Source: Cypionkella sp. (GTDB lineage: Bacteria > Pseudomonadota > Alphaproteobacteria > Rhodobacterales > Rhodobacteraceae). Taken from it: a DNA stretch of 42,359 nt. The notes beneath the pieces were generated by a model. It saw only the letters and a list, made by a program, of their open reading frames with translations, searched no databases and had not been told where the DNA came from. Positions 24,345 through 41,412 of the stretch are shown in pieces. The stretch is from positions 1 through 42,359 of the forward strand of contig NZ_JAUSBA010000058.1 of the NCBI RefSeq assembly GCF_030652235.1. The letters are read 5' to 3'. Both the position numbers and the translations under genes were made by a program. Numbering within the stretch: position 1 is the stretch's first letter; each line of letters opens with the position of its first letter.

Positions 24345-27300
24345 TTAACTCCACATGAAATCCATCGTGCTGAGTTGCCCGGCGTTTGTCAGGCCGCTTA
24401 CGGTGATGAGGATATCCGCCGTACCGTCGCCGTTCACGTCGACCTGCACCCGCGTTCCAACAAACCTTGCCTCGGAATTGTCCGACCCACCCGAAAACGC
24501 AGCATCCCCCATATAGGCGAAGGTGCCGATCAACAGCCCGTTAAACTCGAAGACATCGCCTTGGTCCGCACCACCCGACAGCGCGCTGAAATCGGTGATC
24601 GTGTCGACGCCATTGCCGTTGGCCATGGTGAAGACGAAGTGGTCGGCACCCGCGCCGCCCGTCAGCGTGTCGTTGCCTGCGTTTCCGGTCAGCGAGTCAT
24701 CGCCTGCCAGTCCAAGCAAGCGATTGGCCGCACCATTGCCGGTGATGGCGTTGGCCTGCGCATTTCCCGTGCCGCTGGAGGCTGTTGATCCGGACAGCAT
24801 CAGGTCTTCAAACCCGCTGCCGAGCGTCCAGTTGACCGAACTTGTGACAAGATCTGTACCTTCATCGGCAAATTCAAACAGCATATCCAAGACGGAGTCG
24901 ACAGTATAGCTGTCATTGCCCAAGCCGCCGATCATCGTATCGCGCCCGGCAAGGCCCGACAGTAGGTTATCAGCCGTGTTTCCAATCAGCAGGTTGCTTG
25001 CCGCGTTGCCGATGGCGTTGATCGCCGCTTGTCCGGTGAGGGTCAGATTTTCGACATTGGCCGCCAGTGTCAGGCTGACCGAGGACAGCACGGCGTCGGT
25101 CCCGCCATAGGCAGCCTCGGTTACGCTGTCGAAGGTCGTATCGACAACATAGGTGTCGTCGCCATTGCCGCCCTTCATGGTGTCCGCACCAAGACCGCCA
25201 TCCAATGTGTCGTTGCCGCCGCCGCCCGTCAGCGTGTCATTCCCGGCCATCCCGAACAACGCGTTGTCGCCCGTGTTGCCGTAGATCAGGTTGGCTTCGG
25301 AATTGCCGATGCCGTTCAAATTATCTGTACCATCAAGGATCAGCGTTTCAAAGTTGCTGCCCAAGGTCCAGTCCACGACCGCGATCACTGTATCGGTGCC
25401 GCTCGCGGTTTGGTCGGTCAGCACATCGCCAAGGCTATCGACATAATAGGTATCGTTGCCTGTGCCGCCTTGCATATTGTCGTCGCCAGCACCGCCATCC
25501 AGCGTATCCGCGCCGTCTGCACCCAAAAGGGTATCATCGCCCCGCATGCCCCAAAGATGGTTTGAGCCGTTGTTGCCGACCAGCAGGTTATCGCTGGCAG
25601 AACCGGTTGCATCCAGTGCAGCAGAGCCGATCAGGATAAGGGATTCGATATTATCGCCAAGGGTGTAGCTGACCGAGGTTACGACCGTATCAAAGCCACC
25701 GTTGTAAAGTTCGACCACCAAATCGTTGCCCGAGTCGACGTGGTAGGTGTCATCGCCCAGACCGCCGCGCATGGTGTCTGCCCCTAAGCCGCCATCTAAA
25801 CTGTCATTCCCGGCGCTGCCGATGAGGGTGTTGTCCTGCGTGTTGCCCGTCCCGGTAAAGCCGGCCACACCCATGGCCACAAGCGTTTCAAGGTTGGCGC
25901 CCAGCGTATAGCTGGCAAGCGTGGTGAGAACCGTGTCCAAGCCGCCATAGGCATCTTCGGTCACGGTATCACCCGCAGACTCAACGCTATAGGTGTCATC
26001 GCCCGGCCCGCCAGCCATCATGTCGTCGCCACTGCCACCGTCGAGCGACTCAGCCCCGAAATTGCCCAGCAGCGTGTCGTTGCCCGCCCCGCCGATCAGG
26101 GTGTCGTTGCCCTGAAGATCGGCACAAGGGCTCCAACTTGGGCCTTCAATCACCACCATAACGACGCAGTCAGTTCCACCACTTACCAGCAGATCATCGC
26201 CGTCACCGCCCAGCAAACTGTCGGTGCCGTTGCCGCCGTAAAGCGTATCATCTCCGGGGCCACCGGCTAGAGTATCGTCGCCATCATTGCCCAGCAGCAG
26301 GTCATTTCCCGCGCCTCCCAGCACAGTGTCTGGGCCTTCGGTGCCCGAAAACACACCGTTGATTGGTGTGTCTTCGGGGGGATGGTCGGTTGGGGTGATA
26401 TCAACGGTGAAACTGCCCAGCGTGACAGCGCCATCGCAATCACCGGCAGTGACGGTGACTGCGGCAGCTGCGTCGCCCACCGCATCCAAAGCGCCCATGT
26501 AAAGGATGTTGGTCATGGCGTTGAGATAGCTGTCAATATCCTCTGCCGCGCCTGTCAGGGAGATGGCATCTGAGCCAGAGTTGCTGACTGTCACGCCATC
26601 ATGGCTTTCGGCGTTGAGTGTGCCTGCCGTGGCGCTGACCACGACGGTCAGATCCTCGCAACAATCCGAGTTCGAGACGGTCAGCGACGATAAATCCAGC
26701 GCCGAGGCGGTATCTTCCACCACGCTCAGATGTGTCGGGGCAGGGGGAGGGGCCACTTCAACGGCGATATCGGTGATCTGTTCGATGTTGCTGAAGGACA
26801 GGCTTTCGGTGGTGCGCTGCCCCTGTGCATCCAGCCGATAGACGGTGCCATTTTCGCCGTTCAGGGGGTCGTAGACGATTTCATATGGCCCGATGCCGTG
26901 CAGGTTAAGCGTGTCAAGATCGGAACCGCCTTCGCCTCCGTCAATCACATCGCCAATACCGCCAAGGATCAGGTCAGAGCCTGCGCCGGCTGCGACATGA
27001 TCCTGTCCCGCACCTGCGTCGATGGTGTCATCGCCACCGCCCGTCGCCAGCCAATCATCGCCTGATCCGCTGCGCAGGTTGAATGTCTCAATACCCGCAA
27101 AGGTGGCAACGCCCAAGCCCGAGACGTTTCCGGCGTATCCAGCGCTGTAGGTGCCCGCAAGCGCGCTGATCACGACAGGGCCAGTCGCTGCGGAAAAATC
27201 GACGATCAGCACGTCTGATCCAGCGCCGCCCGCGATGCCATCTGTGCCACCGTTGATGGTAATGCTGTCGTCGCCCGCGCCCGCATCGACGGTGTCGATG

Positions 27301-28532
27301 TCAACGCCGGTGATGATGGTGTCGTCTCCGGCCCCGGTTGCGATGGTGTTGGCCCCGTTGCCCGCCGCGATGTAATTGCCGCCATCGGATGTCGCGATGG
27401 TGTCTGCGCCGTTACCGCTGATGATGGTGTTGTGGCCCGAGGTGGCGGTGATGGTGTTGGCGCCATCCCCGGCATGGATGGTGTTGTTGCCGCTGGTCAC
27501 AGTGATGGTGTCGGCACCACTGCCCGTGACGATGGTGTTGTTGCCAGAGGTCGCGGTGACGGTGTTTGCGCCCTCGCCCACACAGATCGCGTTGTTGCCC
27601 GAGGTGACGGTGACGGTATCGGCCCCAGCCCCCGCCGTGATGATATTGTTGCCGGACGTCGCGGTGATGGTGTTGGCACCGCCCTCGGCCCGGATCACAT
27701 TGTGGCCCGAGGTCAGCGTGATGGTATCAGCCCCGTCACCCGCCCAGATTTTGCTGTTGCCCGAAGTGCCGGTGATCGTATTGGCCCCAGCCCCGGCGTG
27801 GACCGTGTTGTTGCCGGTGGTGAAGGTGATGGTATCGGCACCCGCAGCGGCGGTGATGATCTTGTCGCCGCCGAGGCCCGTGATGGTATTTGCCCCGTCG
27901 CCTGCCATGATGATGTCGCGACCGCCCCCCACGGTGATGGTATCAGCGCCAGCCCCCGTGATCACCGTGTTGTCGCCGTCGCCCGCCGCGATGGTGTTGG
28001 CGCTGGACCCGGCGGTTTCGATGCGGTCATCGCCAGCGCCGGTGGTCAATGTATTGATGCCCGATCCGGCCAGAATGGTGAAATGTTCAATCGTTCCGGC
28101 AGTGACCGTGACCAAGCCTGCATCGGCGGCGGCAAAGCCGCTGTCTGACGAGCCGTTCATTGCAGCCGTTGCAGAATGATAGTCGATGACAAGGCGATCA
28201 TCGCCCAAACCGCCATCGACGTGATCCGTGCCACCCGTCACCGTGATCAGATTATCGCCCGCGTTGCCGCTGATCACGTTCCCCGATCCAGCGTCCAACA
28301 CGTTGATCGAAGCGGTTCCGGCCAGATGCAGGTTGGCAACCCCCGGCGCAAGGTGCAGATGAATGCCCGACGATAAAGCACCCGCATCAATTGTTATGTT
28401 GTCTTGGGTGATTGTGGCGATCTCGTTGCTGTAGCCAGCCTGCAACATGATGGTATCGCCCGGAAAAGCTGCAGCCATTGCCGCTTGAATCGTCTGGTAC
28501 GCAGACGTCGGTCCAACAGTGAGGATTGTCAT
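24345..28532 (-). CDS. large secreted RTX-type calcium-binding repeat protein (1395 aa)
   Basis: There is no N-terminal signal peptide. Residues 1-160 form a conserved opening (YQTIQAAMAAAFPGDTIML). Residues about 160-430 are 18-residue tandem repeats alternating GADTITVTSGNNTIHAGD-like and GANTITATSGNNTI-like units. About 430-590 is a conserved module (DTLNLHGIGPYEIVYDPLNG). About 600-715 is a beta-rich domain. From about 728 on there are classic nonapeptides (GGAGNDLLLGNDGDDTLAGG) and several longer units of the LGANLETLVA...DNTLIGSAGNDSLDGG type. The C-terminal 90 residues (GADHFVFTMANGNGVDTITD) match the end module of type I secretion substrates. ATG 28532 has AAAGG upstream. Predicted role: calcium-folded surface or matrix protein exported by a type I system encoded elsewhere. 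It is a paralogue of the next gene over residues 1-585. Confidence 0.85.
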   Translation of the reverse strand: MTILTVGPTSAYQTIQAAMAAAFPGDTIMLQAGYSNEIATITQDNITIDAGALSSGIHLHLAPGVANLHLAGTASINVLDAGSGNVISGNAGDNLITVTGGTDHVDGGLGDDRLVIDYHSATAAMNGSSDSGFAAADAGLVTVTAGTIEHFTILAGSGINTLTTGAGDDRIETAGSSANTIAAGDGDNTVITGAGADTITVGGGRDIIMAGDGANTITGLGGDKIITAAAGADTITFTTGNNTVHAGAGANTITGTSGNSKIWAGDGADTITLTSGHNVIRAEGGANTITATSGNNIITAGAGADTVTVTSGNNAICVGEGANTVTATSGNNTIVTGSGADTITVTSGNNTIHAGDGANTITATSGHNTIISGNGADTIATSDGGNYIAAGNGANTIATGAGDDTIITGVDIDTVDAGAGDDSITINGGTDGIAGGAGSDVLIVDFSAATGPVVISALAGTYSAGYAGNVSGLGVATFAGIETFNLRSGSGDDWLATGGGDDTIDAGAGQDHVAAGAGSDLILGGIGDVIDGGEGGSDLDTLNLHGIGPYEIVYDPLNGENGTVYRLDAQGQRTTESLSFSNIEQITDIAVEVAPPPAPTHLSVVEDTASALDLSSLTVSNSDCCEDLTVVVSATAGTLNAESHDGVTVSNSGSDAISLTGAAEDIDSYLNAMTNILYMGALDAVGDAAAAVTVTAGDCDGAVTLGSFTVDITPTDHPPEDTPINGVFSGTEGPDTVLGGAGNDLLLGNDGDDTLAGGPGDDTLYGGNGTDSLLGGDGDDLLVSGGTDCVVMVVIEGPSWSPCADLQGNDTLIGGAGNDTLLGNFGAESLDGGSGDDMMAGGPGDDTYSVESAGDTVTEDAYGGLDTVLTTLASYTLGANLETLVAMGVAGFTGTGNTQDNTLIGSAGNDSLDGGLGADTMRGGLGDDTYHVDSGNDLVVELYNGGFDTVVTSVSYTLGDNIESLILIGSAALDATGSASDNLLVGNNGSNHLWGMRGDDTLLGADGADTLDGGAGDDNMQGGTGNDTYYVDSLGDVLTDQTASGTDTVIAVVDWTLGSNFETLILDGTDNLNGIGNSEANLIYGNTGDNALFGMAGNDTLTGGGGNDTLDGGLGADTMKGGNGDDTYVVDTTFDSVTEAAYGGTDAVLSSVSLTLAANVENLTLTGQAAINAIGNAASNLLIGNTADNLLSGLAGRDTMIGGLGNDSYTVDSVLDMLFEFADEGTDLVTSSVNWTLGSGFEDLMLSGSTASSGTGNAQANAITGNGAANRLLGLAGDDSLTGNAGNDTLTGGAGADHFVFTMANGNGVDTITDFSALSGGADQGDVFEFNGLLIGTFAYMGDAAFSGGSDNSEARFVGTRVQVDVNGDGTADILITVSGLTNAGQLSTMDFMWS

Positions 28533-28617
28533 AACAGCCTTTCATCAACGCGCAGCTGGACACACTAGCCGCTACGATTGCGTCTTATTTGAGTGTGTGC
28601 GAGGTGTTGCCGCGAAG

Positions 28618-28654
28618 TCGCCACATCAGCGACACAGATTTGCTGATGTGGCGA
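28618..28654. terminator. strong hairpin between the two RTX genes
   Basis: Arms TCGCCACATCAGC and GCTGATGTGGCGA (13 bp, perfect) enclose an 11-nt loop. It lies 38 nt past the stop of the Hint-RTX gene on the minus strand. There is no T-run, so it may act as an mRNA-end stabiliser, a partial terminator, or a processing site that sets different levels of the two proteins. Confidence 0.55.
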
Positions 28655-28691
28655 CCGCGCAGCGCAGCGATCGAGACTTTGTGCCGCCTTG

Positions 28692-30830
28692 CTAGGCCGC
28701 CAGCAAGACGAGCGCCTCATGGGCTTTCAGCGTAAGTCGCGCCGCGTCAAACTCTGCGAAGCGATTCGCGTCAGAAAGCTCGGGAAAGATTGCCGCCAGT
28801 TCTTGCCGCTGGTCGGCATCGATCCCAGCCAGGGTGCGATCCCCGGGCTGAAAACTTTCGCTCCATGCGCCATCGGCAAGCACAATCTCGTGCTGATCGA
28901 ACATGATATGTATGTAAGTCACCGACTCTAAATAGACTTCCTCGATGCCGGGAAGCGAAACAAGATGCTTTGCCCGGACCAAGACTTCATGGGTATCAAA
29001 CAGCAGTTCGGCTCTTGGACTGGACACCATCATGCGATGCTGACGCGATACCAGCATATCGCGGTTGGGGGTGTCGTTGCCAAAGGCCCCGCGCTGAATT
29101 GAGATCGGTTGCAGCGCAGCATCTGCCGCGAGCAGCGCGCTCGATAGGCGCTTGATTCCGACCCACACAATAGGTCTGAAGCCGTGATCCAGCGTCAGCA
29201 CCAGATCGCCCGCCTTCAGAGTCTCGATCGCATGTGCACCCTGAGGTGTGGCAATCAATGTACCGGGTGTGAAACAGGCGACGATGTTCTCAACATTGGT
29301 GAAGGACAGAGTTTCGCCGGTTCTTCCTCCTTCTGCATTCAGCAGATAGACGGTGCCGTTTTCGCCATTCATTGGATCATAGTCGATTTCGTAGCGCCCG
29401 ATGCCGTATAGGTTGAGCGTGTCAAAGTCTGTTCCGGTCTCACCCCCGTCAATCTCATCGCCGACGCTGCCATAAATCAGGTCAGCCCCCCCCCCGGCAT
29501 GAACGTGATCCGCGCCTGCGCCGGTATTGATGGTGTCATTGCCACCCCCGGTGTAGATTAAATCGTCGCCGCTGCCCGTTCTGATATCGAACGTTTCAAT
29601 TCCCGCGTAGGTAACCGTTCCAGTAACACCCTTGGTAAAGGCACCTGCATACCCGGTGTCCAAAATGCCCACGGGTATCGTGCTTATGACGTCTGTCGTC
29701 GCGTTGGCGTAATCAACCACAAGTGTGTCATTGCCCACGCCGCCTGCAACCCCGTCTGTGCCGCCCCTTACCGTGATGCTATCGTCGCCTGCACCAGTGA
29801 AGATGGTGTCGGTATCGGTACCGGAAATAATGGTGTCATTTCCAGAGCTTGCGGTGATTGTGTTGGCGCCATTGCCGGCATCGATGTAGTTGCCGCCGCT
29901 CGTCACGGCGATGGTGTCAACACCAGTACCGCCGTAAATGGTGTTGTTGCCCGAGGTGGCTGTGATCGTATTGGCACCATCCCCCGCATAAATTATGTTT
30001 GTGCCAGAGGTCACGGTGATCGTATCGACACCACTGCCAGCGTGGATAATGTTATTGCCACGGACGGCTGTGATCGTATTGGCGCCTTCGCCCGCGAAGA
30101 TGTTGTTGTTACCATCCGTCACGGTGATGGTATCGGCCCCGGCACCCGTGACGATAAGTTTATCCCCACCAATCCCCGTGATGGTGTTGGCGCCTTCGCC
30201 CGCGTTGATGATATCGTTACCGCTACCGACGGTGATCGTATCGACACCGGCACCGGTTTTTACGGTATTGTTGCCTTCGCCCGCATCGATCAGGTTGTCG
30301 CCGGCCCCCGCAGTTTCAATATAGTCATTTCCCGCACCTGTGGTCAGCGTGTTAGAGCCTGACCCGGCAAGAACGGTGAAATGTTCAATACTGCCCGGCG
30401 TCGTGGTGACAGAGCCAGTGCCGAGTGCCGCGAACCCGGTGGTCGCGGTGCCAATCACCGAGTTAGTTGCGGTGTGATAGTCAATGACCAGGCGATCATC
30501 GCCCAAGCCGCCATTGACCACATCGAGTCCACCCGTCACGGTGATCACGTTATCGCCCGCATTTCCGGTGATCGTATTGCTTGACGTGTTGTCCACCACG
30601 TCGATTGCGCCGGTTCCGGTCAGCTGCACATTTGCGATTCCCGTCGCAAGCTTCAAATGAATACCCGCTGACAAAGCCCCCGAATCGACGGTGATGTTGC
30701 TTTTGGTGATCGTCGCGGTTTCATTGCTGTAACCCACCGCCAACTTGATCGTATCGCCGGGCAAGGCCGCAACCAGTGCGGCTTGAATTGTCGGGTAGGT
30801 GGAAAGCAGTCCAACGGTCAAGGTTGCCAT
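28692..30830 (-). CDS. RTX-like repeat protein with C-terminal Hint domain (712 aa)
   Basis: Residues 1-515 parallel the neighbouring 1395-aa protein almost position by position: the YPTIQAALVAALPGDTIKL opening, 18-residue repeats from about 160 to 358, and the module DTLNLYGIGRYEIDYDPMNG. At about 518 it switches to a Hint (hedgehog/intein) domain: ACFTPGTLIATPQG supplies the Cys that starts such domains, followed by VLTLDHGFRPIVWVG, SRQHRMMV and VYLESVTYIHIMFDQHEIVLADG. Hint domains can cleave and ligate protein; in roseobacter RTX proteins of this type they sit at the C-terminus with unproven function. I chose ATG 30830 (MATLTVGLLS), which has AAGGA upstream and matches the paralogue's start. 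An upstream Met at 30866 is less likely. Confidence 0.85.
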   Translation of the reverse strand: MATLTVGLLSTYPTIQAALVAALPGDTIKLAVGYSNETATITKSNITVDSGALSAGIHLKLATGIANVQLTGTGAIDVVDNTSSNTITGNAGDNVITVTGGLDVVNGGLGDDRLVIDYHTATNSVIGTATTGFAALGTGSVTTTPGSIEHFTVLAGSGSNTLTTGAGNDYIETAGAGDNLIDAGEGNNTVKTGAGVDTITVGSGNDIINAGEGANTITGIGGDKLIVTGAGADTITVTDGNNNIFAGEGANTITAVRGNNIIHAGSGVDTITVTSGTNIIYAGDGANTITATSGNNTIYGGTGVDTIAVTSGGNYIDAGNGANTITASSGNDTIISGTDTDTIFTGAGDDSITVRGGTDGVAGGVGNDTLVVDYANATTDVISTIPVGILDTGYAGAFTKGVTGTVTYAGIETFDIRTGSGDDLIYTGGGNDTINTGAGADHVHAGGGADLIYGSVGDEIDGGETGTDFDTLNLYGIGRYEIDYDPMNGENGTVYLLNAEGGRTGETLSFTNVENIVACFTPGTLIATPQGAHAIETLKAGDLVLTLDHGFRPIVWVGIKRLSSALLAADAALQPISIQRGAFGNDTPNRDMLVSRQHRMMVSSPRAELLFDTHEVLVRAKHLVSLPGIEEVYLESVTYIHIMFDQHEIVLADGAWSESFQPGDRTLAGIDADQRQELAAIFPELSDANRFAEFDAARLTLKAHEALVLLAA

Positions 30831-31276
30831 TTTTATTCCTTCAGCGACGGCGGGACGTGACTTCACATCCGGGCCAAGCGCGGTACTTGTTAATTTCTAT
30901 GGATTTTATCGGTCGGTCAGACAGGTTTCTTGTGCCGTACCTGACCGTTTGCGGGCATGCGCCGCATCTTGGCGCTATGCGCGTTGCGTCAGCTGAATGG
31001 TCGACGCCACATTGCAAACCAGTGTAAGCAATACCTATCGTGCTCTGCCCCGAGTAAGGGCAGGTGTTTCAGATGCCTTTTGGCTTTCATAAAATGCCTG
31101 TTGGTCGATCACCCCAGGTCCGCCACCCAGAGTAAATTTGTTGCCCAATTTTTACTAGCATGCGGTAGTGCCAAACGGCGTGGCGCAAAGGCATAACCGG
31201 CGCTATCTTCCGCGTGAGAGGCTGTGCCAAAGATAGTGAGGTCTCGGGTTTTTGACGATCAGACCGCTGCAGGGCC
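30831..31276. other. intergenic region upstream of the Hint-RTX gene
   Basis: These 446 bp lie between the end of the histidine kinase gene and the start of the Hint-RTX gene, both on the minus strand. The part next to 30830 must hold the RTX promoter; 30885-30920 is AT-rich and is the likeliest place. I find no gene, tRNA or clear repeat. Because the gap is long, the RTX genes are probably transcribed separately from the kinase. Confidence 0.4.
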
Positions 31277-33877
31277 TTAGGTGTTTGCACCAACCAGCAG
31301 TGGAAATGGTGTCTCAAACCACTCGTCCGTGTCTTGTTTGGCCGCGATGGCCGCATCCAGCAGCGTGGCAATTGCCATGTACTGGCCGGCCCTTATCGCA
31401 TCCTCAAGCGCGCAAAGCAGCTTATACAACCGATGCGCCCCAATCACTGCGACTGACCCGGCGGCTTGGTGCATTTGCGTGGCCAGCGCATCGTCCAAGG
31501 GCGCATCGCGGGCGCTGATCAAGGCAAGGTTTGCATCGCTCAGGGCAGTATGCACCAACGCCAGAAAATCATCGCGTTGTAACACAGCCTGCATGTCGCG
31601 CAGACTTTCAACGGCGATCAGCGGGTGTGGGTTGTCCTGCGCAGTCGCAGGCGCAGGAGGAGGCGCAGAGGCCAAACCCTGCAAATGGATCGCCAATGCA
31701 GCCGAGGTGATCGGTTTGACCCGTGTGCAGTTCATTCCAGCCGCTATGAACCGCGCGAAGTCTTGCGGCATGGCATTGGCGGTCACCCCCATGATCGGAA
31801 CCTTGGCCGAGGCCCCACTGGCGCGAATCAACCGCGTGGCTTCCAAACCGTTCATTTCCGGCATGTTGATATCCATCAGGATCAAGTCGAACTGGCGCTG
31901 AGCTGCGACTTTGACGGCGACCGCCCCATCACTCGCCAATTCGACGCTATGCCCCAGCCGCTTTAGCATTTGTTCCAGCAGCAATCGGTTCACCACGTTG
32001 TCATCCACCACCAGCACAGTCAGCGGCGAAACCGATGCCTCATCCTGCGCCGCCTCGACGCGATCAACGGGTATGAGCGGTGCGATGCTTTGCGGAATGT
32101 CGAACCAGAAGCGGCTGCCGTTTCCGAAGGTGCTTTCAAGCTGCAATGTGCCGCCCATTAAATCGACGGCACGGCGCACGATACCCAACCCAAGACCCGA
32201 TGCGCCAAAGGATTCCAGCCTCGGATCGGCCACGGTCACAAAATCATCAAAAATGCGGGTCAGGTGCTGGGGTTCAATGCCAATCCCTGTATCGCGCACT
32301 TCAACCCGCATTTTCCCCACCATGTCAGGCGTCGGGAAAATCCGTACAGTGATCGTGCCCTGTTTGGTGAATTTGATCGCGTTGCCCACCAGATTGGCCA
32401 ATGCGCTGCGAAACGCGCGGCGATTGCCCAGCATCGGCCCCGACAAAGCGGGGTCGAAATCAAGCGACAGCAAGGTAGTATTGGCAGATGCAAGGTACTG
32501 CATCTGATCCACGATTAACTTTGCAAGCTCGACTGGAAAAAATGTCAACACCACACCCGGAACATCTGCCGCATCGTCCGAGGCCAGTTGCAGCACCTCT
32601 TCAATCTGCTCAAGCGCGGCACCCGCGCAATCCCGTGCAATTTTTCGCAATGGCCGTCTTTGTGCGTCCGTGGTAGTCCCACCCAAAAGGTCGATTGCCG
32701 CGATGACGCCATGCAACGGCGTGCGCATTTCGTGGCTCATCACCGCCAGAAAGCGCGCGTTGGCGGCAGCCCTGCGTTCGGCTTCAAGCCGCGCCGCCCG
32801 TTGTATTGCATCGGCCTCGACCAGTTTTGTGATATCGCGCAGAAAGGCGAGGAAGATCGGCTTGCCGTCGACGTCCACATCCGAAGCGATGGCAACCTCT
32901 GCCATGAAATCAGAGCCGTCGCTTTTTTGCAGCGTCAGACGCACCCGACCCTTGTTGGCCGAACGTACCAGGTTTGCTGCTATCTGCCGCCCGCTCAGTT
33001 GGCCCTTTCGCTGGGCACGATCGTCGCGGTGCAACAGGTTTTCGACAAGATCGCCCTTCACCTCGGCAAGGCTGTGGCCAAACATGGTTTCAGCCGCCGT
33101 GTTAAAGCTGCTGATCCGGCCAGAAACATCGGTGATGATCACCGCATCCAGCGATGTTTCGATCGCTTTGGTTAAATTCGCGCTGATGCGGGCGAAATCC
33201 ACAGTGCGCCGCGTCAACAACGAAGATTGCCGCAGCACGAACACCGCGATGCCCCCCAACAAGATGGCGGCGCCTTGGGTCAGCACCATCAGCCATTTCA
33301 GCACAAGCACGCGGTTCGAGAATTCTGTCGTGTCGTTGCGCACGATCCCGTCAAGGGTGTCCATAGCGTTCTGCCGCAAAACTGGTAAAATTAACTCGGC
33401 CTCGGCCAAAAGCCTCCGAAAATAATCGGCGTTCTGCCCCGCACTGTTGTCAACAAGCGGCGCAAGCTCGCGCAGATGGGCCTCGATCTTGGACATCCCC
33501 AGACGCAGCGCAAGTCGTTTATTATCTTCAATGCGAAAGTAGTTTATGCGCGCCGAAACGATGCTGATGCGCCTAAAATAAATGTCAAAACTGTTGACAA
33601 CCGCGGCAATGGCGTTGGGCCTGCTGGCCAAAGGCGCATCAACAGCGTTGTGCGTTGCCAGAAGAAAGCGTTGAAACTCGACTTCCAGTTGCGACACGGT
33701 CCAGATGGAATTGTCGAATCGACCGGACTTCAGAGCATCCATCTTTTTCATGACAACCAGGGCTGTCAGCTCTAACCCAATGATCCCTACTATAATGAGG
33801 GCCGCAGTGAAGTTGCCCAGACCGCGGTTGGTTACGTTTTTTCTTAACCAAGCCCAAATTGGGATCGTGATGCGCAT
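31277..33877 (-). CDS. hybrid sensor histidine kinase (TM-periplasmic-TM-PAS-HisKA-HATPase-REC-HPt)
   Basis: The 866-residue protein has helices at about 23-43 and 196-215 that flank a roughly 150-residue helical periplasmic domain. A PAS domain (about 235-350, ETSLDAVIITDVSGRISSFN) is followed by HisKA (FLAVMSHEMRTPLHG, His382), HATPase_c (N box LVGNAIKF, G1 DTGIGI, G2 GASGLGLGI), a receiver domain (VVDDN, phospho-Asp669 in LMDINMPEMNG, Lys721) and an HPt-like domain (His803 in MHQAAGSVAVIG). All residues for a His-Asp-His relay are present, so it should phosphorylate a separate response regulator. Its ATG (33877) directly follows the TAA of the SUOX-fold gene (TAAATG), so the two are co-translated. 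That protein is the natural candidate ligand-binding partner for the periplasmic domain. Confidence 0.93.
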   Translation of the reverse strand: MRITIPIWAWLRKNVTNRGLGNFTAALIIVGIIGLELTALVVMKKMDALKSGRFDNSIWTVSQLEVEFQRFLLATHNAVDAPLASRPNAIAAVVNSFDIYFRRISIVSARINYFRIEDNKRLALRLGMSKIEAHLRELAPLVDNSAGQNADYFRRLLAEAELILPVLRQNAMDTLDGIVRNDTTEFSNRVLVLKWLMVLTQGAAILLGGIAVFVLRQSSLLTRRTVDFARISANLTKAIETSLDAVIITDVSGRISSFNTAAETMFGHSLAEVKGDLVENLLHRDDRAQRKGQLSGRQIAANLVRSANKGRVRLTLQKSDGSDFMAEVAIASDVDVDGKPIFLAFLRDITKLVEADAIQRAARLEAERRAAANARFLAVMSHEMRTPLHGVIAAIDLLGGTTTDAQRRPLRKIARDCAGAALEQIEEVLQLASDDAADVPGVVLTFFPVELAKLIVDQMQYLASANTTLLSLDFDPALSGPMLGNRRAFRSALANLVGNAIKFTKQGTITVRIFPTPDMVGKMRVEVRDTGIGIEPQHLTRIFDDFVTVADPRLESFGASGLGLGIVRRAVDLMGGTLQLESTFGNGSRFWFDIPQSIAPLIPVDRVEAAQDEASVSPLTVLVVDDNVVNRLLLEQMLKRLGHSVELASDGAVAVKVAAQRQFDLILMDINMPEMNGLEATRLIRASGASAKVPIMGVTANAMPQDFARFIAAGMNCTRVKPITSAALAIHLQGLASAPPPAPATAQDNPHPLIAVESLRDMQAVLQRDDFLALVHTALSDANLALISARDAPLDDALATQMHQAAGSVAVIGAHRLYKLLCALEDAIRAGQYMAIATLLDAAIAAKQDTDEWFETPFPLLVGANT

Positions 33878-34393
33878 TTATGGGGCGTTCACACGCAACT
33901 GGATCAGTTGCCACACGCTTTGTGAGTAAATCAGATCGTTTCTGTATTTTTCATATGAATCAAATGGGTAGATCAGCCAAATTGGCCCCGACTCGCGCAG
34001 CGAAAATGGCAGGCCGTTCTTGCGTGTCGCCAGAATCGGATAAGATGCATCTACAGTGTCAGGCGAAAGCGCGATGCTGTATTCGTTGGCGGCAATGGCC
34101 GTGATCTGCCCTGGCTCGGCTTCGATCGAATCCAGCACCGACATCAGAGTAGGGCCCGAAAAAGATACCATACCTTCGGTCCAGATTGTGGTGGTGCTAA
34201 AGCTGGTTTGTGGCAAAGCGTCCAGCATGGCAAGGTCAAACTGGGCTGTCGTGCCTGCGTTTCGCCGATGGATGGCGCCATCTGCTTCCAACAGCACCGT
34301 GCCCTGCGGCATCGCAAGGGCGGGCGTCTGTGCCAAAGCCGAGATCGGCACCCAACAGGCAAGTGAAGCCACAAATGTACGCCTTGATATCAT
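33878..34393 (-). CDS. exported SUOX-fold (PruR-like) putative pterin-binding protein
   Basis: The 171-residue product has a signal peptide (MISRRTFVASLACWVPISALAQ; cleavage expected after Ala-Gln 22) and a mature domain resembling the molybdopterin-binding core of sulfite oxidases. Recognisable parts are FSGPTLMSVLDSI, AANEYSIALSPDTV, YPILATRKNG and GPIWLIYPFDSYEKYRND. The catalytic Cys of true sulfite oxidases is not seen. PruR of Agrobacterium tumefaciens is a periplasmic protein of this type that binds pterins and controls the membrane protein DcpA. Here the gene is fused in translation with a hybrid kinase. ATG 34393 follows GGAAAGGG; a frame extension to 34456 is not needed. The pterin-binding role is inferred from family likeness. 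Alternatively it could bind another ligand. Confidence 0.7.
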   Translation of the reverse strand: MISRRTFVASLACWVPISALAQTPALAMPQGTVLLEADGAIHRRNAGTTAQFDLAMLDALPQTSFSTTTIWTEGMVSFSGPTLMSVLDSIEAEPGQITAIAANEYSIALSPDTVDASYPILATRKNGLPFSLRESGPIWLIYPFDSYEKYRNDLIYSQSVWQLIQLRVNAP

Positions 34394-34478
34394 TCGATAT
34401 GCCCTTTCCACGGCCAAACGACACATTGACCTCTCTATCGCATGACGCGCGTGCATGAAATACAGCAGAGTTGATAGT

Positions 34479-34552
34479 TATACTTTAGATAGATTGGCGC
34501 AGGGTCATATACTTTAGTAACTGATCTATGTTGTTGCATATCCTATGGATAT
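34479..34552. promoter_or_regulatory. direct repeats and palindrome between the sensor genes and the response regulator
   Basis: The divergent gap (34394-34642) holds two copies of TATACTTTAG (34479-34488 and 34508-34517, 29 bp apart) and a 15-bp palindrome ATATCCTATGGATAT (34538-34552). The gap is AT-rich compared with both genes. These are candidate promoter elements or binding sites for the LuxR-type regulator, whose gene starts 90 bp further on. Confidence 0.4.
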
Positions 34553-34642
34553 CATGCGAATTCATTGGAATGTGCCAGTGCCAGAAGGTCATGTAAGTGT
34601 GCCAAAAACAAGAAAAATGTGCAGAGAAAGCCGCACCTTCGT

Positions 34643-35296
34643 ATGGAAAAATCACACACCCACTCCACAGTTTCCGTTCTGATTGCGGATGATCACGACC
34701 TTGTGCGGGACGCATTGGCGCAGGCTCTGTCGTTCGATAAACGGTTTTCCGTAACCACAGCAGACAGCTACATGGCGGCTTTGGCCGCAATCTCTAAACT
34801 TGGCAAAGTCGATGTGCTGTTGTTGGATATCGTCATGCCGGGGATGAATGGGCTGAAAAGCATCGAGGATTTCGTCAAGGTGAACGCCGACGGCGCGGTT
34901 GTGGTGTTTTCGGGCAATATCGCTCCTGACTTTATCACGCAGGCCTTGGCGCTGGGGGCACGCGGTTTCATCCCAAAGACGCTGCCGCTAAAATCGCTTG
35001 CGACAGCGATCCATCTGATAGCCTCGGGGCAGATTTTTGTGCCCTTCGTCGCATATAGCCCGCCAAAAGAGCCGGAAATCGAAGATCTGGAGCGCCTATC
35101 ACTCAAGGAACTGCGCATCCTGAACCACGTCTCTGACGGTCTGACCAACAAAGAAATTGCTTGGAAAGTTGATGTTGCAGAAGTGACCGTGAAAATGCAC
35201 ATGCGGTCGATTTGCACAAAACTGAAAGCAAAAAACCGTGCCCATGCGGCAATTATCGCCGCGCAGAATGGGCTGTTGCTGCACAACACCTTTTAG
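34643..35296 (+). CDS. LuxR/NarL-type response regulator
   Basis: The 217-residue product has a receiver domain (VLIADDHDLVRDALAQAL, phospho-Asp62 in LLLDIVMPGMNGL, Lys112 in FIPKT) and a C-terminal LuxR helix-turn-helix (LSLKELRILNHVSDGLTNKEIA, then VTVKMHMRSICTKLKAKNR). It is transcribed away from the SUOX-fold/hybrid kinase pair, so it is the probable output of that relay. ATG 34643 (MEKSHTHSTVSVLIADDH) is preferred because the receiver fold begins directly after it; a frame extension to 34565 is Cys/Lys-rich and unconvincing. Its target genes are not shown by sequence; the adjacent RTX genes are candidates. Confidence 0.9.
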   Translation: MEKSHTHSTVSVLIADDHDLVRDALAQALSFDKRFSVTTADSYMAALAAISKLGKVDVLLLDIVMPGMNGLKSIEDFVKVNADGAVVVFSGNIAPDFITQALALGARGFIPKTLPLKSLATAIHLIASGQIFVPFVAYSPPKEPEIEDLERLSLKELRILNHVSDGLTNKEIAWKVDVAEVTVKMHMRSICTKLKAKNRAHAAIIAAQNGLLLHNTF

Positions 35297-35867: not shown

Positions 35868-36851
35868 ATGCGCTCTGCCCTGAAAAGCCTTTTATGCGCC
35901 GTGCTGCCCTTGTTTGGCGGCTTGGCTTATGCTGAAACGCCAGCCCTGCAGCCGACCACGATCATCGAGTGGAAGGCGGTTTACGGTCAGGTCGAGGCAA
36001 GGGACCGCATCCCCGCGCGGGCTCGCCTTGGTGGTACATTGATTGGGTTGACCGTTGTCGAGGGAGATCTGGTCACCGCGGGTCAGCCCATCGGGCGGAT
36101 AGAAGATGAAAAGCTGGCGTTTCAACTCTCGGCGCTTTCTGCGCAGCGGGGCGCGTTGGAAGCACAGTTGACGAATGCGCAAGCCGAACTCACGCGGGGC
36201 GAAAGCCTGCTGAAGCAGGGGGTGACGACAGCGCAGGGGTTGGATGCCTTGCGCACGCGGGTCGATGTGTTCAAGGGCCAGATCGCGGCGCTGGATGCGC
36301 AGACCGAGGTGATCAGCCAACAGGTCAAAGAGGGCACGGTGCTGGCGCCTGCCGATGGGCGGGTGCTGGATGTGCCCGTCTCGAAAGGCGGGGTGGTGAT
36401 GCCGGGCGAGGAGATTGCCCTGATCGGCGGTGGCGGAACCTTCCTGCGGATCTCTATTCCTGAACGTCATGCCCCCAGCCTGCATCAGGGCGACAAGATC
36501 GAGATTTCCGCAGGCGATACGACCCAGACGGGCACCCTGTCGCGGATTTACCCGCTGATTCAGAATGGAAGGGTGATTGCCGATGTTGAACTGGCAGGTC
36601 TGCCCGATACCTTCGTCCAAGCGCGAATGCTGGTGCGGCTGCCGGTTGGCCAGCGGAACGCGCTGATGGTGCCGGTGACGGCGATTTCGTCAACCGCCGG
36701 TCTGGATTTTGTTGGCGTCGAAACGGCCTCTGGGCCGGTTCAACGCAGCGTCGTTCCGGGAGAACACGCGATCATTGACGGGGTCGAGATGGTTGAGATT
36801 CTGTCAGGCCTTGAAGCGGGTGACCACATCCTACCCAGTGCCGCAAAATGA
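35868..36851 (+). CDS. RND efflux periplasmic adaptor (membrane fusion protein)
   Basis: The 327-residue product has an N-terminal signal (MRSALKSLLCAVLPLFGGLAYA), a lipoyl-like half-motif (GGTLIGLTVVEGDLVTAGQPIGRIED), a coiled-coil hairpin (about 80-155, LSAQRGALEAQLTNAQAELT), the second lipoyl half (APADGRVLDVPVSKGG) and a beta-barrel part (GDKIEISAGDTTQTGTLSRI). It links the inner-membrane pump to an outer-membrane channel; no outer-membrane factor gene is in the window. The start follows GTGAGGACCTGAATC. It overlaps the permease gene by ATGA at 36848. First gene of the operon behind the SqrR-type operator. Confidence 0.9.
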   Translation: MRSALKSLLCAVLPLFGGLAYAETPALQPTTIIEWKAVYGQVEARDRIPARARLGGTLIGLTVVEGDLVTAGQPIGRIEDEKLAFQLSALSAQRGALEAQLTNAQAELTRGESLLKQGVTTAQGLDALRTRVDVFKGQIAALDAQTEVISQQVKEGTVLAPADGRVLDVPVSKGGVVMPGEEIALIGGGGTFLRISIPERHAPSLHQGDKIEISAGDTTQTGTLSRIYPLIQNGRVIADVELAGLPDTFVQARMLVRLPVGQRNALMVPVTAISSTAGLDFVGVETASGPVQRSVVPGEHAIIDGVEMVEILSGLEAGDHILPSAAK

Positions 36852-39800
36852 GTAATTTCTCTGACAAGCCGGCAGACAAGCCTTTGGGTCTCGCCGGACG
36901 TCTGACTCAGGCCTTCATTCAATCGGCCCTGACCCCGCTGTTCATTCTGGCCGCCCTCGCCGCCGGGATGTTGGCCGTCGTCTCGCTTCCGCGCGAGGAA
37001 GAGCCGCAAATCTCGGTGCCGATGGTCGATATCCATGTGCAAGCGCAAGGCTTGAAGGCTGAGGATGCCGTCAAGCTGGTAACCGAACCCCTTGAGGTCA
37101 TCGTAAAGGGGATCAACGGGGTGGAGCATGTCTATTCTTCGACCCGCGACGACGCGGCCATGGTCACGGCGCGCTTCGCCGTGGGGACCAATGCCGACGA
37201 AGCGATGCTGCGCGTGCATGACAAGGTGCGCGCCAACATGGACCGGATTCCCTTGGGCATCCCCGAACCCCTGATCATCGGGCGCGGCATTGATGATGTG
37301 GCGATCTTGTCCCTGACGCTGTCTTCAGCCCCCGGCGAGAACATTTCGGCCAACGACCTGACCCGCATCGCCCGCACCCTGCAGACCGAGGTTGCCAAGG
37401 CCGACAACGTCGGACTGACCTATCTGGTCGGCGACGCGCAGGATGCCATCCAGATCCAGCCTGATCCGGATCGGTTGGCGCTTTACGGTGTGACGCTGCA
37501 ACAACTGGCGCTGAAGGTGGGACAAGCGAACCGCACGCTGAACACCGGCAAGCTGCGCGACGGCGGTCAACAGATCGACCTTGTGGCGGGCCAGACACTG
37601 ACCGCGCCAGCCGCTGTGGCGCAGCTTTTGCTGACCACGCGGGATGGCCGCCCGGTCTATGTTTCTGACGTGGCCGCGGTCGTCTATGTGGCCGATACCT
37701 CTGACCATACCGTCGCCAACATCATCCGCAACGCCGATGGGTCGATCACCCGGTCCCCCGCCGTTACGCTGGCCATTGCCAAGCGCGCTGGCGCCAATGC
37801 GGTTGTGGTGGCCGAACAGGTCCTTACGCAGGTCGAGGCGCTTAAGGGCCATCAAATCCCTGACTCGGTGACCGTCACCGTCACCCGCGACTATGGTGAG
37901 ACCGCCAATGAGAAAGCCAACGAGCTGCTGTTCCACCTTGGACTTGCCACGGTGTCGATCATCGTTCTGGTCCTGTTTGCCATCGGCTGGCGCGAGGCCA
38001 TCGTGGTGGCCATCGTCATCCCGGTCACGATCCTGCTGACGCTGTTTGCGGCGTGGATCATGGGTTACACGCTGAACCGCGTTAGCCTGTTTGCGCTGAT
38101 TTTCTCGATCGGGATTCTGGTCGACGATGCCATCGTGGTGATCGAGAACATCGCGCGGCATTGGGGCATGAAGGATGGCCGCAGCCGGTCCGCCGCCGCC
38201 ATCGACGCGGTGGCCGAGGTGGGCAATCCCACCATCGTGGCCACACTGACCGTGGTGGCGGCGCTGCTGCCGATGCTATTCGTCTCGGGCCTGATGGGGC
38301 CGTATATGTCGCCCATCCCGGCCAATGCCAGCGCCGCGATGATCTTCTCGTTCTTTGTGGCCGTCATCATCACCCCGTGGCTGATGGTCAAGATCGCGGG
38401 CCGGGCCGATATAACGGCGCACGGCGATGACGACATCTCTGGCGAGCATCACGGCGGCTGGATGGCGCGCGCCTATAACCGCGTGGCCCGGCCCTTGCTG
38501 CAGTCAAAGGCGCGGTCGCTGACCTTCCTGCTTGTGACTGCGGCGCTGTCCTTCGGCTCGCTGGTTGCCCTGTATACCCGCGATGTCACGGTCAAGCTTT
38601 TGCCCTTCGACAATAAATCTGAACTGTCGGTGATGATCGACCTGCCCGAAGGGTCTTCGGTCGAAGCGACCGACCGCGTCGCACAGGACGTGGCCGCGAT
38701 CGTCATGCAGATGCCGGAGGTGACCACCGTGCAGACCCATGCCGGAACCGCGGCCCCCTTCAACTTCAACGGTCTGGTGCGGCACTACTACCTGCGTCAG
38801 GAACCGCAATTGGGCGAAGTGGCGATCAATCTGACGCCAAAGGGCGACCGTGCCCGCGCCAGCCATGCCATAGCACTGGACATCCGCACCAAGCTGGCCG
38901 CACTGACCATGCCGGCCGGCAGCAGCCTGAAAGTGGTCGAACCGCCGCCCGGCCCGCCGGTGATCTCGACCCTTCTGGCCGAGGTCTATGGCCCCGACGC
39001 CGCCACCCGCCGCGCTGCCGCCGCCAAGATTCAAATGGCGTTTGAGGCGGTCCCCTTCATCGTCGATGTTGATAACAGTTACGGCACCCCGGCGCGCCGG
39101 TTGCGGGCGACGGTGTCGACCGACAACCTCGACTTCTTCGGGGTGCAGGAACAAGACGTGTTCGACACCATCGCCTTGCTGAACGGCGGGCAGACGGTGG
39201 GCTATTCCAACCGGGGCGAGGGGCGGCTCCCGATCCCGCTGCAGGTCGCGCGGCCCAAGTCTGACCGCGTGATGGACCAGCGATTCATGACCACGCCGAT
39301 CCCTGCCAATGTGCTGCCCGGCGCCAAATCGGTGGTGGAACTGGGCGATGTCGTGACAGTGGCGGAAGAGCCCGCTTCTTATCCGATCTTCCGCCACAAT
39401 GGCCGCTACGCCGAGATGGTGACGGCGGAACTGGCTGGGCAATTTGAAGCGCCTTTGTACGGCATGCTCGCCGTGGCCGATCAAATCAGCAAACAGGACT
39501 GGCCGAACGGCAAGCCCACCATCAGCTTGCACGGCCAGCCGCAGGACGAAAGCCGCGTCACGCTTCTGTGGGATGGCGAGTGGGAAGTCACCTTCGTCAC
39601 CTTCCGCGACATGGGGGCGGCCTTCGGCGTGGCCTTGCTGGGCATTTACATCCTTGTGGTCGCCCAATTTGGCTCGTTCCGGCTGCCCTTGGTAATCCTG
39701 ACGCCAATCCCGTTGACTTTCCTTGGCATCGTAGCGGGACACTGGCTGTTTGGCGCGCCCTTCTCGGCCACCTCGATGATCGGCTTCATCGCCCTGGCGG

Positions 39801-40069
39801 GGATCATCGTCAGGAACTCGATCCTGCTGGTCGACTTCATCCGCAACAGCGGCAACGGCCTGGTCACCATCGACATTCTGGTCGAGGCCGGGGCGGTCCG
39901 CTTCAAGCCGATCCTCTTGACGGCTATTGCCGCCATGATCGGGGCCGTGGTGATCCTGTCCGACCCGATCTTCCAGGGCCTGGCGATCTCGCTGCTGTTC
40001 GGGCTGCTGTCGTCAACCCTGCTGACCGTGCTGGTCATCCCGGCGATCTACCGCGTGTTCAAGACCTGA
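36848..40069 (+). CDS. RND efflux transporter permease
   Basis: The 1073-residue inner-membrane pump has the family layout: helix 1 near 33-50 followed by LPREEEPQISVPMVDIHV, a first periplasmic loop, a helix cluster (about 365-520, with VSIIVLVLFAIGWREAIVVAIVIP, GILVDDAIVVIENIARH and AALLPMLFVSGLMGPYM), a second large loop, and the C-terminal cluster (LLGIYILVVAQFGSFRLPLVI, GIIVRNSILLVDFIRNS). Asp residues in LVDDAIVVIEN fit the proton-relay region. Translational coupling to the adaptor indicates one pump. Substrate is unknown; because it sits behind a sulfide/persulfide-type operator, export of a reactive sulfur compound or another thiol stress product is a reasonable guess. Confidence 0.93.
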   Translation: MSNFSDKPADKPLGLAGRLTQAFIQSALTPLFILAALAAGMLAVVSLPREEEPQISVPMVDIHVQAQGLKAEDAVKLVTEPLEVIVKGINGVEHVYSSTRDDAAMVTARFAVGTNADEAMLRVHDKVRANMDRIPLGIPEPLIIGRGIDDVAILSLTLSSAPGENISANDLTRIARTLQTEVAKADNVGLTYLVGDAQDAIQIQPDPDRLALYGVTLQQLALKVGQANRTLNTGKLRDGGQQIDLVAGQTLTAPAAVAQLLLTTRDGRPVYVSDVAAVVYVADTSDHTVANIIRNADGSITRSPAVTLAIAKRAGANAVVVAEQVLTQVEALKGHQIPDSVTVTVTRDYGETANEKANELLFHLGLATVSIIVLVLFAIGWREAIVVAIVIPVTILLTLFAAWIMGYTLNRVSLFALIFSIGILVDDAIVVIENIARHWGMKDGRSRSAAAIDAVAEVGNPTIVATLTVVAALLPMLFVSGLMGPYMSPIPANASAAMIFSFFVAVIITPWLMVKIAGRADITAHGDDDISGEHHGGWMARAYNRVARPLLQSKARSLTFLLVTAALSFGSLVALYTRDVTVKLLPFDNKSELSVMIDLPEGSSVEATDRVAQDVAAIVMQMPEVTTVQTHAGTAAPFNFNGLVRHYYLRQEPQLGEVAINLTPKGDRARASHAIALDIRTKLAALTMPAGSSLKVVEPPPGPPVISTLLAEVYGPDAATRRAAAAKIQMAFEAVPFIVDVDNSYGTPARRLRATVSTDNLDFFGVQEQDVFDTIALLNGGQTVGYSNRGEGRLPIPLQVARPKSDRVMDQRFMTTPIPANVLPGAKSVVELGDVVTVAEEPASYPIFRHNGRYAEMVTAELAGQFEAPLYGMLAVADQISKQDWPNGKPTISLHGQPQDESRVTLLWDGEWEVTFVTFRDMGAAFGVALLGIYILVVAQFGSFRLPLVILTPIPLTFLGIVAGHWLFGAPFSATSMIGFIALAGIIVRNSILLVDFIRNSGNGLVTIDILVEAGAVRFKPILLTAIAAMIGAVVILSDPIFQGLAISLLFGLLSSTLLTVLVIPAIYRVFKT

Positions 40070-40125: not shown

Positions 40126-41412
40126 ATGGCGCATGTCGTCGTACTTGGAGCGGGACTTGGCGGGGCCATCATGGCCTACGAACTCAAGGACCAGCTTCGC
40201 AAAGAAGACACGGTCACCGTGGTGACCAAGGACCCGACCTATCACTTCGTCCCCTCGAACCCGTGGATTGCGGTGGGTTGGCGCAAGCGCGCGGAGATTA
40301 CCGTCGATCTGGCCCCGACAATGGCCAAGAGGAAGATCAACTTTATCCCTGTTGCCGCCGAACGTCTGCACCCGCAGGAGAACCGCATTGAACTGGTTGA
40401 CGGCCAATCGGTGGCTTACGACTATCTTGTGATTGCCACCGGCCCTGAGCTGGCCTTTGACGAGGTTCCGGGCCTTGGCCCGCAGGACGGCTTTACCCAG
40501 TCGGTCTGCCACATCGACCATGCTGAAAAGGCCGAACTGGCCTTCCAGCACCTGCTGAAGAACCCCGGCCCGGTGATCATCGGGGCGGCACAGGGGGCAA
40601 GCTGCTTCGGCCCGGCGTATGAGTTTCTGTTCATCCTTGAAACCGCTCTGCGCCGCGCGGAAATCCGCGACAAGGTGCCGATGATCTTCGTGACCCCCGA
40701 GCCCTATGTCGGCCACCTGGGCATTGATGGCGTGGGCGACACCAAGGGCCTTCTGGAATCCGAGATGCGGTCCAAGACGATCAAATGGATGACCTCGACC
40801 CGGATCAAAAAGGTCGAAGACGGCAAGATGACCGTGGAGGAGGTTGGTGAAGATGGCGTGGCCAAGCCCGAAAAGGTTCTGCCCTTCGCCTATTCCATGA
40901 TGCTGCCCGCCTTTCGCGGCATCAAACCGGTGTCGGGGATTGAAGGTCTGTCCAATCCGCGCGGCTTTACCCTTGTCGATCAGCACCAGCAGAACCCAAG
41001 GTTCAAGAATATCTTTGCCGTGGGCGTCTGTGTGGCCATCCCGCCGCTTGCGCCTACTCCGGTGGCCTGCGGCGTGCCCAAGACCGGCTTCATGATTGAA
41101 TCCATGGTTACAGCCACCGCCCACAACATCGGTAAACTGGTGCGCGGCGCAGAGCCTGATCAGGTCGGCACCTGGAACGCCATCTGTCTGGCTGATTTCG
41201 GCGACGGCGGCATCGCCTTTGTGGCGCAACCGCAAATCCCGCCGCGCAACGTGAACTGGTCGTCCAGTGGGAAATGGGTTCACCTCGCCAAGGTGGGATT
41301 CGAGAAATACTTCATGCGCAAGCTACGGCAGGGCAAGTCCGAGCCGTTCTACGAAAGCCTGGCACTCAAGGTGCTGGGCATCGACAAACTGAAAGAAACC
41401 AAAAAGGGCTAA
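40126..41412 (+). CDS. sqr: sulfide:quinone oxidoreductase-like flavoprotein
   Basis: The 428-residue product starts with an FAD-binding motif (VVVLGAGLGGAIMAYEL, about 4-20). Cys128 (SVCHIDHAEKAE), Cys160 (GAAQGASCFGP) and Cys315 (TPVACGVPKTGFMIE) occupy places comparable to the three catalytic cysteines of sulfide:quinone oxidoreductases; Cys302 is extra. KNIFAVGVCVAIPP is the late FAD-contact segment. SQR oxidises sulfide to polysulfide or persulfide and passes electrons to quinone at the inner membrane. ATG 40126 has GAGGAG 6 nt upstream; the frame is open far upstream but that overlaps the permease gene. The context with an SqrR-like repressor supports the call. The SQR subtype is not assigned. 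Confidence 0.85.
   Translation: MAHVVVLGAGLGGAIMAYELKDQLRKEDTVTVVTKDPTYHFVPSNPWIAVGWRKRAEITVDLAPTMAKRKINFIPVAAERLHPQENRIELVDGQSVAYDYLVIATGPELAFDEVPGLGPQDGFTQSVCHIDHAEKAELAFQHLLKNPGPVIIGAAQGASCFGPAYEFLFILETALRRAEIRDKVPMIFVTPEPYVGHLGIDGVGDTKGLLESEMRSKTIKWMTSTRIKKVEDGKMTVEEVGEDGVAKPEKVLPFAYSMMLPAFRGIKPVSGIEGLSNPRGFTLVDQHQQNPRFKNIFAVGVCVAIPPLAPTPVACGVPKTGFMIESMVTATAHNIGKLVRGAEPDQVGTWNAICLADFGDGGIAFVAQPQIPPRNVNWSSSGKWVHLAKVGFEKYFMRKLRQGKSEPFYESLALKVLGIDKLKETKKG

Follow-up and report, generated by a model that had tools for sequence, protein, structure and literature searches.

A PruR-type protein and its partner kinase

The 42,359-nucleotide stretch of Cypionkella sp. DNA analysed here (contig NZ_JAUSBA010000058.1, hereafter the window) holds a pruR-like gene, a gene for a hybrid histidine kinase directly 3′ of it on the same strand and, divergent from pruR, a gene for a NarL/LuxR-type response regulator (Table 1). 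According to the reading of the open reading frames (ORFs), the TAA stop codon of the pruR-like gene abuts the ATG of the kinase gene, both on the minus strand; this junction and the three ORFs had been claimed in a preliminary description of the DNA, whose coordinates were reproduced. Judged from the sequence alone, this is the operon layout of the systems named PruR-DTB, described in a 2026 review, in which the gene after pruR may encode a kinase whose periplasmic domain is of DcpA type and carries a WX7E motif, with Ruegeria pomeroyi WP_011045932.1 as the example (PMC13259868). The pruR-kinase-regulator order was seen again in many relatives, which makes the arrangement of the locus more than chance. 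We consider it probable that the locus is a PruR-DTB signalling module with an output regulator of its own, and with control of matrix genes in part of the relatives. The comparison rests on 220 related loci, namely 80 named loci and 140 from one draw of 198 family genomes (140 fetched among at least 149 foreign places listed); a PruR match at E 1e-5 was present in 111 of these 198 genomes.

The small protein matched the solved PruR structures in phmmer searches (7kos, E 3.5e-25; 7rkb, 1.2e-23; 7kom, 1e-16; 7kp2, 2e-16) and found no family in Pfam (E up to 10) or NCBIfam (E up to 1). Its model, predicted together with the kinase N-terminus, gave template modelling (TM) scores of 0.91-0.93 to Agrobacterium PruR chains over the solved chain, and the seven best solved matches to the model were all PruR entries. 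The predicted protein thus has the sulfite oxidase (SUOX)-type fold of solved PruR, and the PruR-like identity proposed in the preliminary description is borne out. N103, Y105 and W161 stand at the pterin-contact positions, which in Agrobacterium PruR are Asn102, Tyr104 and Trp160 (PMC13259868); the W161 column is kept in 219 of the 220 foreign loci, and the Y105 column holds Y or F in all 220. An N-terminal export signal was read by eye, and the length fits the approximately 170 residues of PruR. By homology and predicted structure, the small protein is of PruR type and putatively binds a pterin.

Public records annotate such genes as 'molybdopterin-dependent oxidoreductase', and the protein could accordingly be a molybdenum enzyme or electron carrier of the sulfite-oxidase family, the kinase sensing its redox product. 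This explanation is highly improbable. The sole cysteine of the protein, C13, lies inside the signal peptide, and the four cysteine-richest columns of the 220 relatives precede residue 12 of the window protein; an apparent cysteine column (73 of 220 rows; 76 on a rerun) lies ahead of residue 1, in sequence that the stop-to-stop ORFs include but that is not translated. W161 and Y105 are as in PruR, the best solved matches are those given above, and Pfam Oxidored_molyb was not matched at E 10. The molybdoenzyme reading was rejected, as the mature protein, being free of cysteine, has no cysteine ligand for molybdenum.

In the kinase, Pfam recognizes PAS (residues 237-349), HisKA (373-436), HATPase (485-596) and REC (621-729) domains, as well as a histidine phosphotransfer (HPt) domain at 769-841 whose match is sub-threshold (E 0.0015; 19.2 versus a cut-off of 24.6 bits). 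An HPt profile built from relatives matches 151 of the 162 partners that combine histidine kinase and receiver (HK+REC), the window kinase included. The phospho-residues H382 (HisKA), D669 (REC) and H803 (HPt) occupy columns that do not vary in any of the 150 HPt-class kinases. The top NCBIfam match is TorS, with 259 bits under a cut-off of 676.5, and we count the kinase core as TorS/BaeS-like.

The periplasmic domain carries WX7E as W59 and E67; among the 150 HPt-class kinases the first column holds W in 146, and the second E in 109 and D in 33. A profile of the kinase N-terminus matched the same region of five cyclase-type PruR partners (L211, L242, L245 and L250, classed as DcpA, and L251, once classed as DcpA-EAL and later as 'other') with a probability of 93.9 and an E of 1.6e-7. 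The domain is predicted to be all-helical, with a predicted local distance difference test score of 89.7. In this respect it resembles the four-helix sensor kinases of the NarQ/QseE type, to which the fold search gave weak matches (9m08 chain C, an entry of the QseG-QseE complex, the best at E 0.014, and NarQ); it differs from them in that no solved structure matched the window domain at E 0.001. PruR distances track this periplasmic domain most closely of the kinase parts, with a partial correlation of 0.29 and the next at 0.14 (118 loci, without significance test). On the sequence evidence, the window kinase is of the published PruR-DTB kind with a DcpA-type periplasmic domain.

Table 1. Positions of the module and of related features in the window
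Feature	Position	Strand	Remarks
pruR-like gene	33878-34393	-	171 aa, SUOX-type fold; homology, model, residue alignment
DTB-type hybrid histidine kinase gene	31277-33877	-	866 aa; H382, D669, H803
Kinase periplasmic four-helix domain, residues 44-195	33293-33748	-	WX7E = W59/E67
Kinase C-terminal part with HPt, residues 756-866, H803	31280-31612	-	Pfam sub-threshold and profile from relatives
NarL/LuxR-type response regulator gene, divergent from pruR	34643-35296	+	217 aa, REC and GerE, D62
Promoter region common to pruR and regulator	34394-34642	no strand	degenerate operator-like elements
Top operator match in the window, 18.3 bits	11369-11388	no strand	intergenic, candidate distant target

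Some further observations concern PruR and its putative ligand. The signal peptide contains SRRTF (window 34373-34387), which by eye resembles a twin-arginine translocation (Tat) signal, and PruR may for this reason be exported in the folded state together with its ligand. The genome of the window encodes a short-chain dehydrogenase/reductase (SDR) with TGX3RXG (here TGAGKRLG) and YX3K motifs, which are given as marks of pteridine reductases (PMC13259868). It scores below the FolM and pteridine reductase cut-offs and passes one of the 25 models shown, the generic 'SDR family oxidoreductase'. Four related loci (L139, L143, L166 and L236) have a pruR gene with neither a kinase nor a cyclase directly downstream, and a gene that by eye is SelO/YdiU-like stands there instead.

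Linkage of the regulator to the HPt domain

The regulator consists of REC and GerE domains in Pfam, and its phospho-acceptor D62 is kept in 141 of 141 linked regulators; the numbering of H803 and D62 in the preliminary description was confirmed. Together with a separate receiver, the HisKA-REC-HPt kinase thus has the four residues of a four-step phosphorelay (H382, D669, H803 and D62). In the family draw the regulator lies near the kinase in 70 of the 78 loci with an HPt kinase, and of these 70 regulators 55 are divergent at up to 0.7 kb, 13 are divergent at 0.7-3 kb and 2 are placed otherwise; the corresponding counts are 1 of 23 for plain kinases, 0 of 8 for hybrids without HPt and 0 of 3 for DcpA types. 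Of the 67 HPt loci of the named set, 59 have it nearby. The single plain-kinase exception, L124, is a split gene with its HPt in the next ORF; L032, L098 and L105 of the named set likewise have HPt in the next ORF. A list of kinases with the regulator but without HPt was dropped, since HPt was found once the next ORF had been examined.

From the family draw these linkage counts exclude the truncated partners (3 HK, 1 DcpA and 1 other). They also exclude loci that lack the regulator and have under 2 kb of upstream sequence, namely 2 HPt, 2 HK and 1 HK+REC in the family draw, and 3 HPt and 1 HK in the named set. Partners classed as 'none' or 'other' stand outside the contrast and include some misread ORFs, such as L120, which has kinase, REC and regulator. 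By partner class, then, the presence of the regulator goes with the presence of HPt, as a four-step relay requires. The survey of neighbours of PruR homologues that had been proposed beforehand gives the same picture: kinase partners are common, and regulator linkage follows HPt. Another REC gene lies within 3.5 kb of 16 of 27 plain kinases without the regulator versus 8 of 129 HPt kinases with it.

An ordinary PruR-DTB pair might nevertheless be all there is, with PruR gating the kinase, the divergent regulator a mere neighbour and the phosphate passing elsewhere, for example to a global regulator. Eight of the 78 HPt loci of the family draw and 8 of the 67 of the named set have no nearby regulator, and the regulator receiver shows little specific co-variation with HPt (partial correlation 0.04), as such an arrangement would lead one to expect. 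We nevertheless find it decidedly unlikely, since regulator linkage closely tracks HPt and the palindrome described below tracks the same HPt class.

The preliminary description had proposed a PruR-driven His-Asp-His-Asp relay and had presented a kinase or phosphorelay output for PruR as a different signalling route. The identity of the small protein, the coupling of the genes and the relay itself gain support from the PruR fold and pterin-contact residues, the DcpA-type periplasmic domain with its WX7E motif, the invariant phospho-residues and the regulator linkage. The claim of a new route had to be abandoned, because PruR-DTB is already described in PMC13259868 and the idea of a phosphorelay output is thus in print at the kinase level. 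The window module shares with PruR-DTB of Ruegeria pomeroyi the PruR protein and the DcpA-type periplasmic domain, as well as WX7E, PAS, HisKA, HATPase, REC and the TorS-like core. With PruR-DcpA of Agrobacterium (Atu3496, 7kos) it shares the PruR fold and residues and a homologous periplasmic region of the partner; unlike there, the partner carries kinase, REC and HPt domains instead of GGDEF-EAL, so that the output would be a kinase and phosphorelay. What the window and its relatives add to PruR-DTB as reviewed is HPt, a conserved divergent NarL-type regulator and a candidate operator; some of the relatives add exopolysaccharide genes as well. The terms 'response regulator', 'phosphorelay' and 'LuxR' are absent from the main text of PMC13259868. 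Judged by their listings, the papers that came up in literature searches did not connect PruR-DTB with a regulator, a DNA site or polysaccharides; we do not claim that the linkage is unpublished.

A palindrome at pruR promoters

Dyads of the form CTATCC-N4-GGATAG are abundant in the 105 pruR-regulator intergenic regions, that of the window included, and CTAT-N8-ATAG occurs in 33 of the 105, versus a mean of 0.53 in shuffles. A palindromic model obtained by expectation maximization (EM) and started from dyads found beforehand, ACCTATMC-N4-GKATAGGT, reached a log-likelihood of 579 as compared with 26-43 in five shuffled sets; without a seed EM led to another, poorer motif (140.7), and two shifted seeds led to a TATAC variant (283.8). 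In split-half tests, with an identical seed word for both halves, 29 of 58 and 28 of 46 unseen regions had a site of at least 15 bits, versus about 0.1% of shuffles. Held-out loci, in which the regulator lies 0.7-3 kb off and which stood outside the training, have a site just upstream of pruR in 24 of 25 cases, whereas the palindrome was found upstream of pruR in 0 of 27 plain kinases without regulator and 0 of 4 DcpA types. Outside the windows upstream of pruR, the 2.32 Mb of fetched DNA contain 77 matches, polysaccharide promoters among them. The palindrome is a candidate operator of the linked NarL-type regulator, which may bind it.

Alternatively, the palindrome may be the site of another regulator that acts on pruR and polysaccharide genes, the relay regulator having other targets. 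Of the 21 HPt loci that have no regulator nearby, 9 possess the palindrome, and the window regulator is adjoined by degenerate sites alone, both of which this explanation would accommodate. It agrees poorly with the absence of the palindrome from the plain kinases without regulator and the DcpA types, with a palindrome in L286 that separates a regulator gene from a kinase gene, both matching the same profiles, at a place without a detected pruR, and with another next to a regulator and wzz genes, where the nearby kinase is of different make-up (L272). We regard it as rather unlikely.

In the window itself, the region between pruR and the regulator has TATACTTTAG at 34479 and 34508 and ATATCC-TAT-GGATAT at 34538-34552. 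The regulator is matched at E <= 1e-40 in just 5 of 15 genus genomes, the window's own genome included. The site with the highest score in the window (Table 1) lies upstream of a TadG-like (tight adherence) gene (9570-11195, minus strand) and of an ORF for a glutamate/leucine-type dehydrogenase (ending at 12996, plus strand); it is a candidate distant target, and a single site of this kind may arise by chance in 42 kb. A riboswitch near 11500 was not found: at the gathering threshold, Rfam gives just a tRNA in the window.

Four whole genomes together contain 10 exact copies of CTATMC-N4-GKATAG. Nine are located at PruR modules, including one at the second such module of a genome, and the reversed pattern gives 1; the tenth copy (L256) is near an ORF that by eye is transposase-like. 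Among the 198 genomes, 24 of the 75 listed copies (106 in total) fall within 6 kb of a PruR match, in an estimated 0.24% of the sequence, a figure that is partly circular because some of those loci trained the motif. The single exact copy in the window's own genome (G000:C1:11182-11197, L282) is upstream of a 146-residue ORF without assigned identity.

From the 51 listed sites that lie more than 6 kb from any PruR match, 20 stretches were hand-picked, mostly at sites with A/T-rich centres, and their genes were in part run through Pfam and otherwise judged by eye. Seven of these (L269, L270, L271, L272, L283, L286 and L288) contain matrix genes, a matching regulator-kinase pair or FIST genes. 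Genes for FIST-domain proteins, among which NosP is counted, adjoin the palindrome in two genomes (L271:1127-2434 and L269:2344-3582). One 55.7-kb contig carries regulator and Wzz-like genes (L272) and WecG-GalU genes (L271) at opposite ends, each with a palindrome, and also holds the kinase of another make-up; the sole listed PruR match of that genome is weak and on a different contig. The FIST genes and this contig suggest that different sensors act on one output module. In L287 the palindrome lies upstream of an ORF that by eye is Flp-pilin-like and has no Pfam match, which may be chance.

Exopolysaccharide genes and the proposed signalling route

At least two of five polysaccharide seeds (Wzz, WecG-sugar transferase, GalU, Wza and Wzx homologues, counted within the fetched stretch) are present in 11 of 70 HPt loci with regulator in the family draw and in 12 of 59 in the named set. 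The seeds were taken from L061 by Pfam identity, except that Wzz, without a Pfam match, was named by position and look. In Ruegeria sp. B32 and in Sulfitobacter faviae the module lies on an annotated plasmid, inside a polysaccharide gene cluster. Both have, in this order, O-antigen ligase, a hypothetical protein in the Wzz-like place, the regulator, a WecB/TagA/CpsF glycosyltransferase and UTP-glucose uridylyltransferase, and continue with PruR, the hybrid kinase, polysaccharide export, flippase and glycosyltransferases; the S. faviae plasmid has one additional gene between UTP-glucose uridylyltransferase and PruR. The two plasmid stretches contain 7 palindromes of at least 13 bits, which are intergenic, one overlapping the end of the regulator gene by two bases; at the export/flippase promoter of the Ruegeria sp. 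B32 stretch no palindrome of at least 13 bits was found. HPt-type PruR kinases without a nearby regulator occur in Afifella, Notoacmeibacter and Flavimaribacter (L044, L052 and L079), where Wza and Wzx homologues are present and the palindrome lies upstream of pruR.

The computed homology, fold, residues, linkage and palindrome with its places suggest a course of signalling of which we infer the ligand, the docking, the direction of phosphate transfer, the binding of the palindrome by the regulator, the sign of the response and, for the organism of the window, the target genes. A PruA-like reductase would make a reduced pterin, which would reach the periplasm and bind PruR. Pterin-loaded PruR would dock on the periplasmic four-helix domain of its partner kinase, where it would set the balance of kinase and phosphatase activities. 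Phosphate would then pass from H382 to D669, on to H803 of HPt and finally to D62 of the divergently encoded NarL-type regulator, which would bind the palindrome in the promoter of pruR and also, in some relatives, in promoters of exopolysaccharide genes. The signal may in this way alter matrix production via transcription and not via cyclic di-GMP (c-di-GMP).

It is tempting to go further and to see here a pterin-responsive switch of matrix transcription that works alongside the PruR-DcpA c-di-GMP route without depending on it, and in which a common output of regulator and palindrome serves swappable sensors. This broader proposal is tentative, and we would lean slightly against it. Its scope would take in exopolysaccharide and perhaps pilus genes, with PruR-DTB as sensor and elsewhere perhaps FIST proteins. 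A comparable known system is NosP/NahK, a heme-responsive protein and its kinase (PMC13259868). There too a sensor protein acts on a hybrid kinase in biofilm control, and FIST genes adjoin the palindrome in two of the stretches described above; unlike NosP/NahK, the window sensor is of a different family, and no PruR lies beside the FIST-adjoining sites.

Besides the HPt loci that lack a nearby regulator, those among them that nevertheless have the palindrome, and the weak co-variation of HPt with the receiver, several observations weigh against a module with its own output regulator and palindrome. The related loci share kinship, so that the counts are not independent trials. The fused PruR-kinase model reached a predicted TM score (pTM) of 0.55, so that docking of PruR on the kinase is no more than putative. 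The class of regions on which the palindrome was trained itself reaches 15 bits in just 59 of 96, and the palindrome also occurs in 1 of 10 hybrids that have neither HPt nor regulator and in 2 of 14 'other' loci without regulator. At the window promoter the palindrome is degenerate (best 20-mer 9.6 bits, at 34505), and the relatives L032, L033, L035 and L036 likewise score under 8 bits. Across the 198 genomes, the 106 exact copies, in 70 genomes, compare with 118 for the reversed control; the genome-wide count is thus not above chance, which would account for most of the copies that lie away from PruR. The window's own genome has 1 exact copy versus 4 for the reversed control. For 13 of the 20 hand-picked stretches no connection is apparent, and these may be chance; the window module has none of the five polysaccharide seeds in its vicinity.

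The neighbours of the window module are RTX/Hint proteins and a resistance-nodulation-division (RND) pump. Two large RTX-repeat proteins are encoded at 24345-30866, one of them with a Hint domain. Hint ORFs occur in 13 of 129 HPt loci with regulator versus 3 of 91 others, and the window's own genome has 12 Hint_2 matches; a link of the module to RTX/Hint proteins such as that at 28692-30866 is weak. Control of the neighbouring RND genes (35868-40069) was considered and found no support, as none of the twelve best palindrome scores of the window falls there. Beyond the pump, a sulfide:quinone-reductase-like protein (40126-41412) and an ArsR-type regulator (41709-42041) were recognized by eye.

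PruR-DTB is known from genome surveys, and PMC13259868 names no regulator, DNA site or target for it. The divergent regulator, the short palindrome and, where present, the neighbouring exopolysaccharide cluster now provide three named candidates, testable within one strain. If the proposed route is true, periplasmic pterins would control the matrix by transcription as well as through c-di-GMP.

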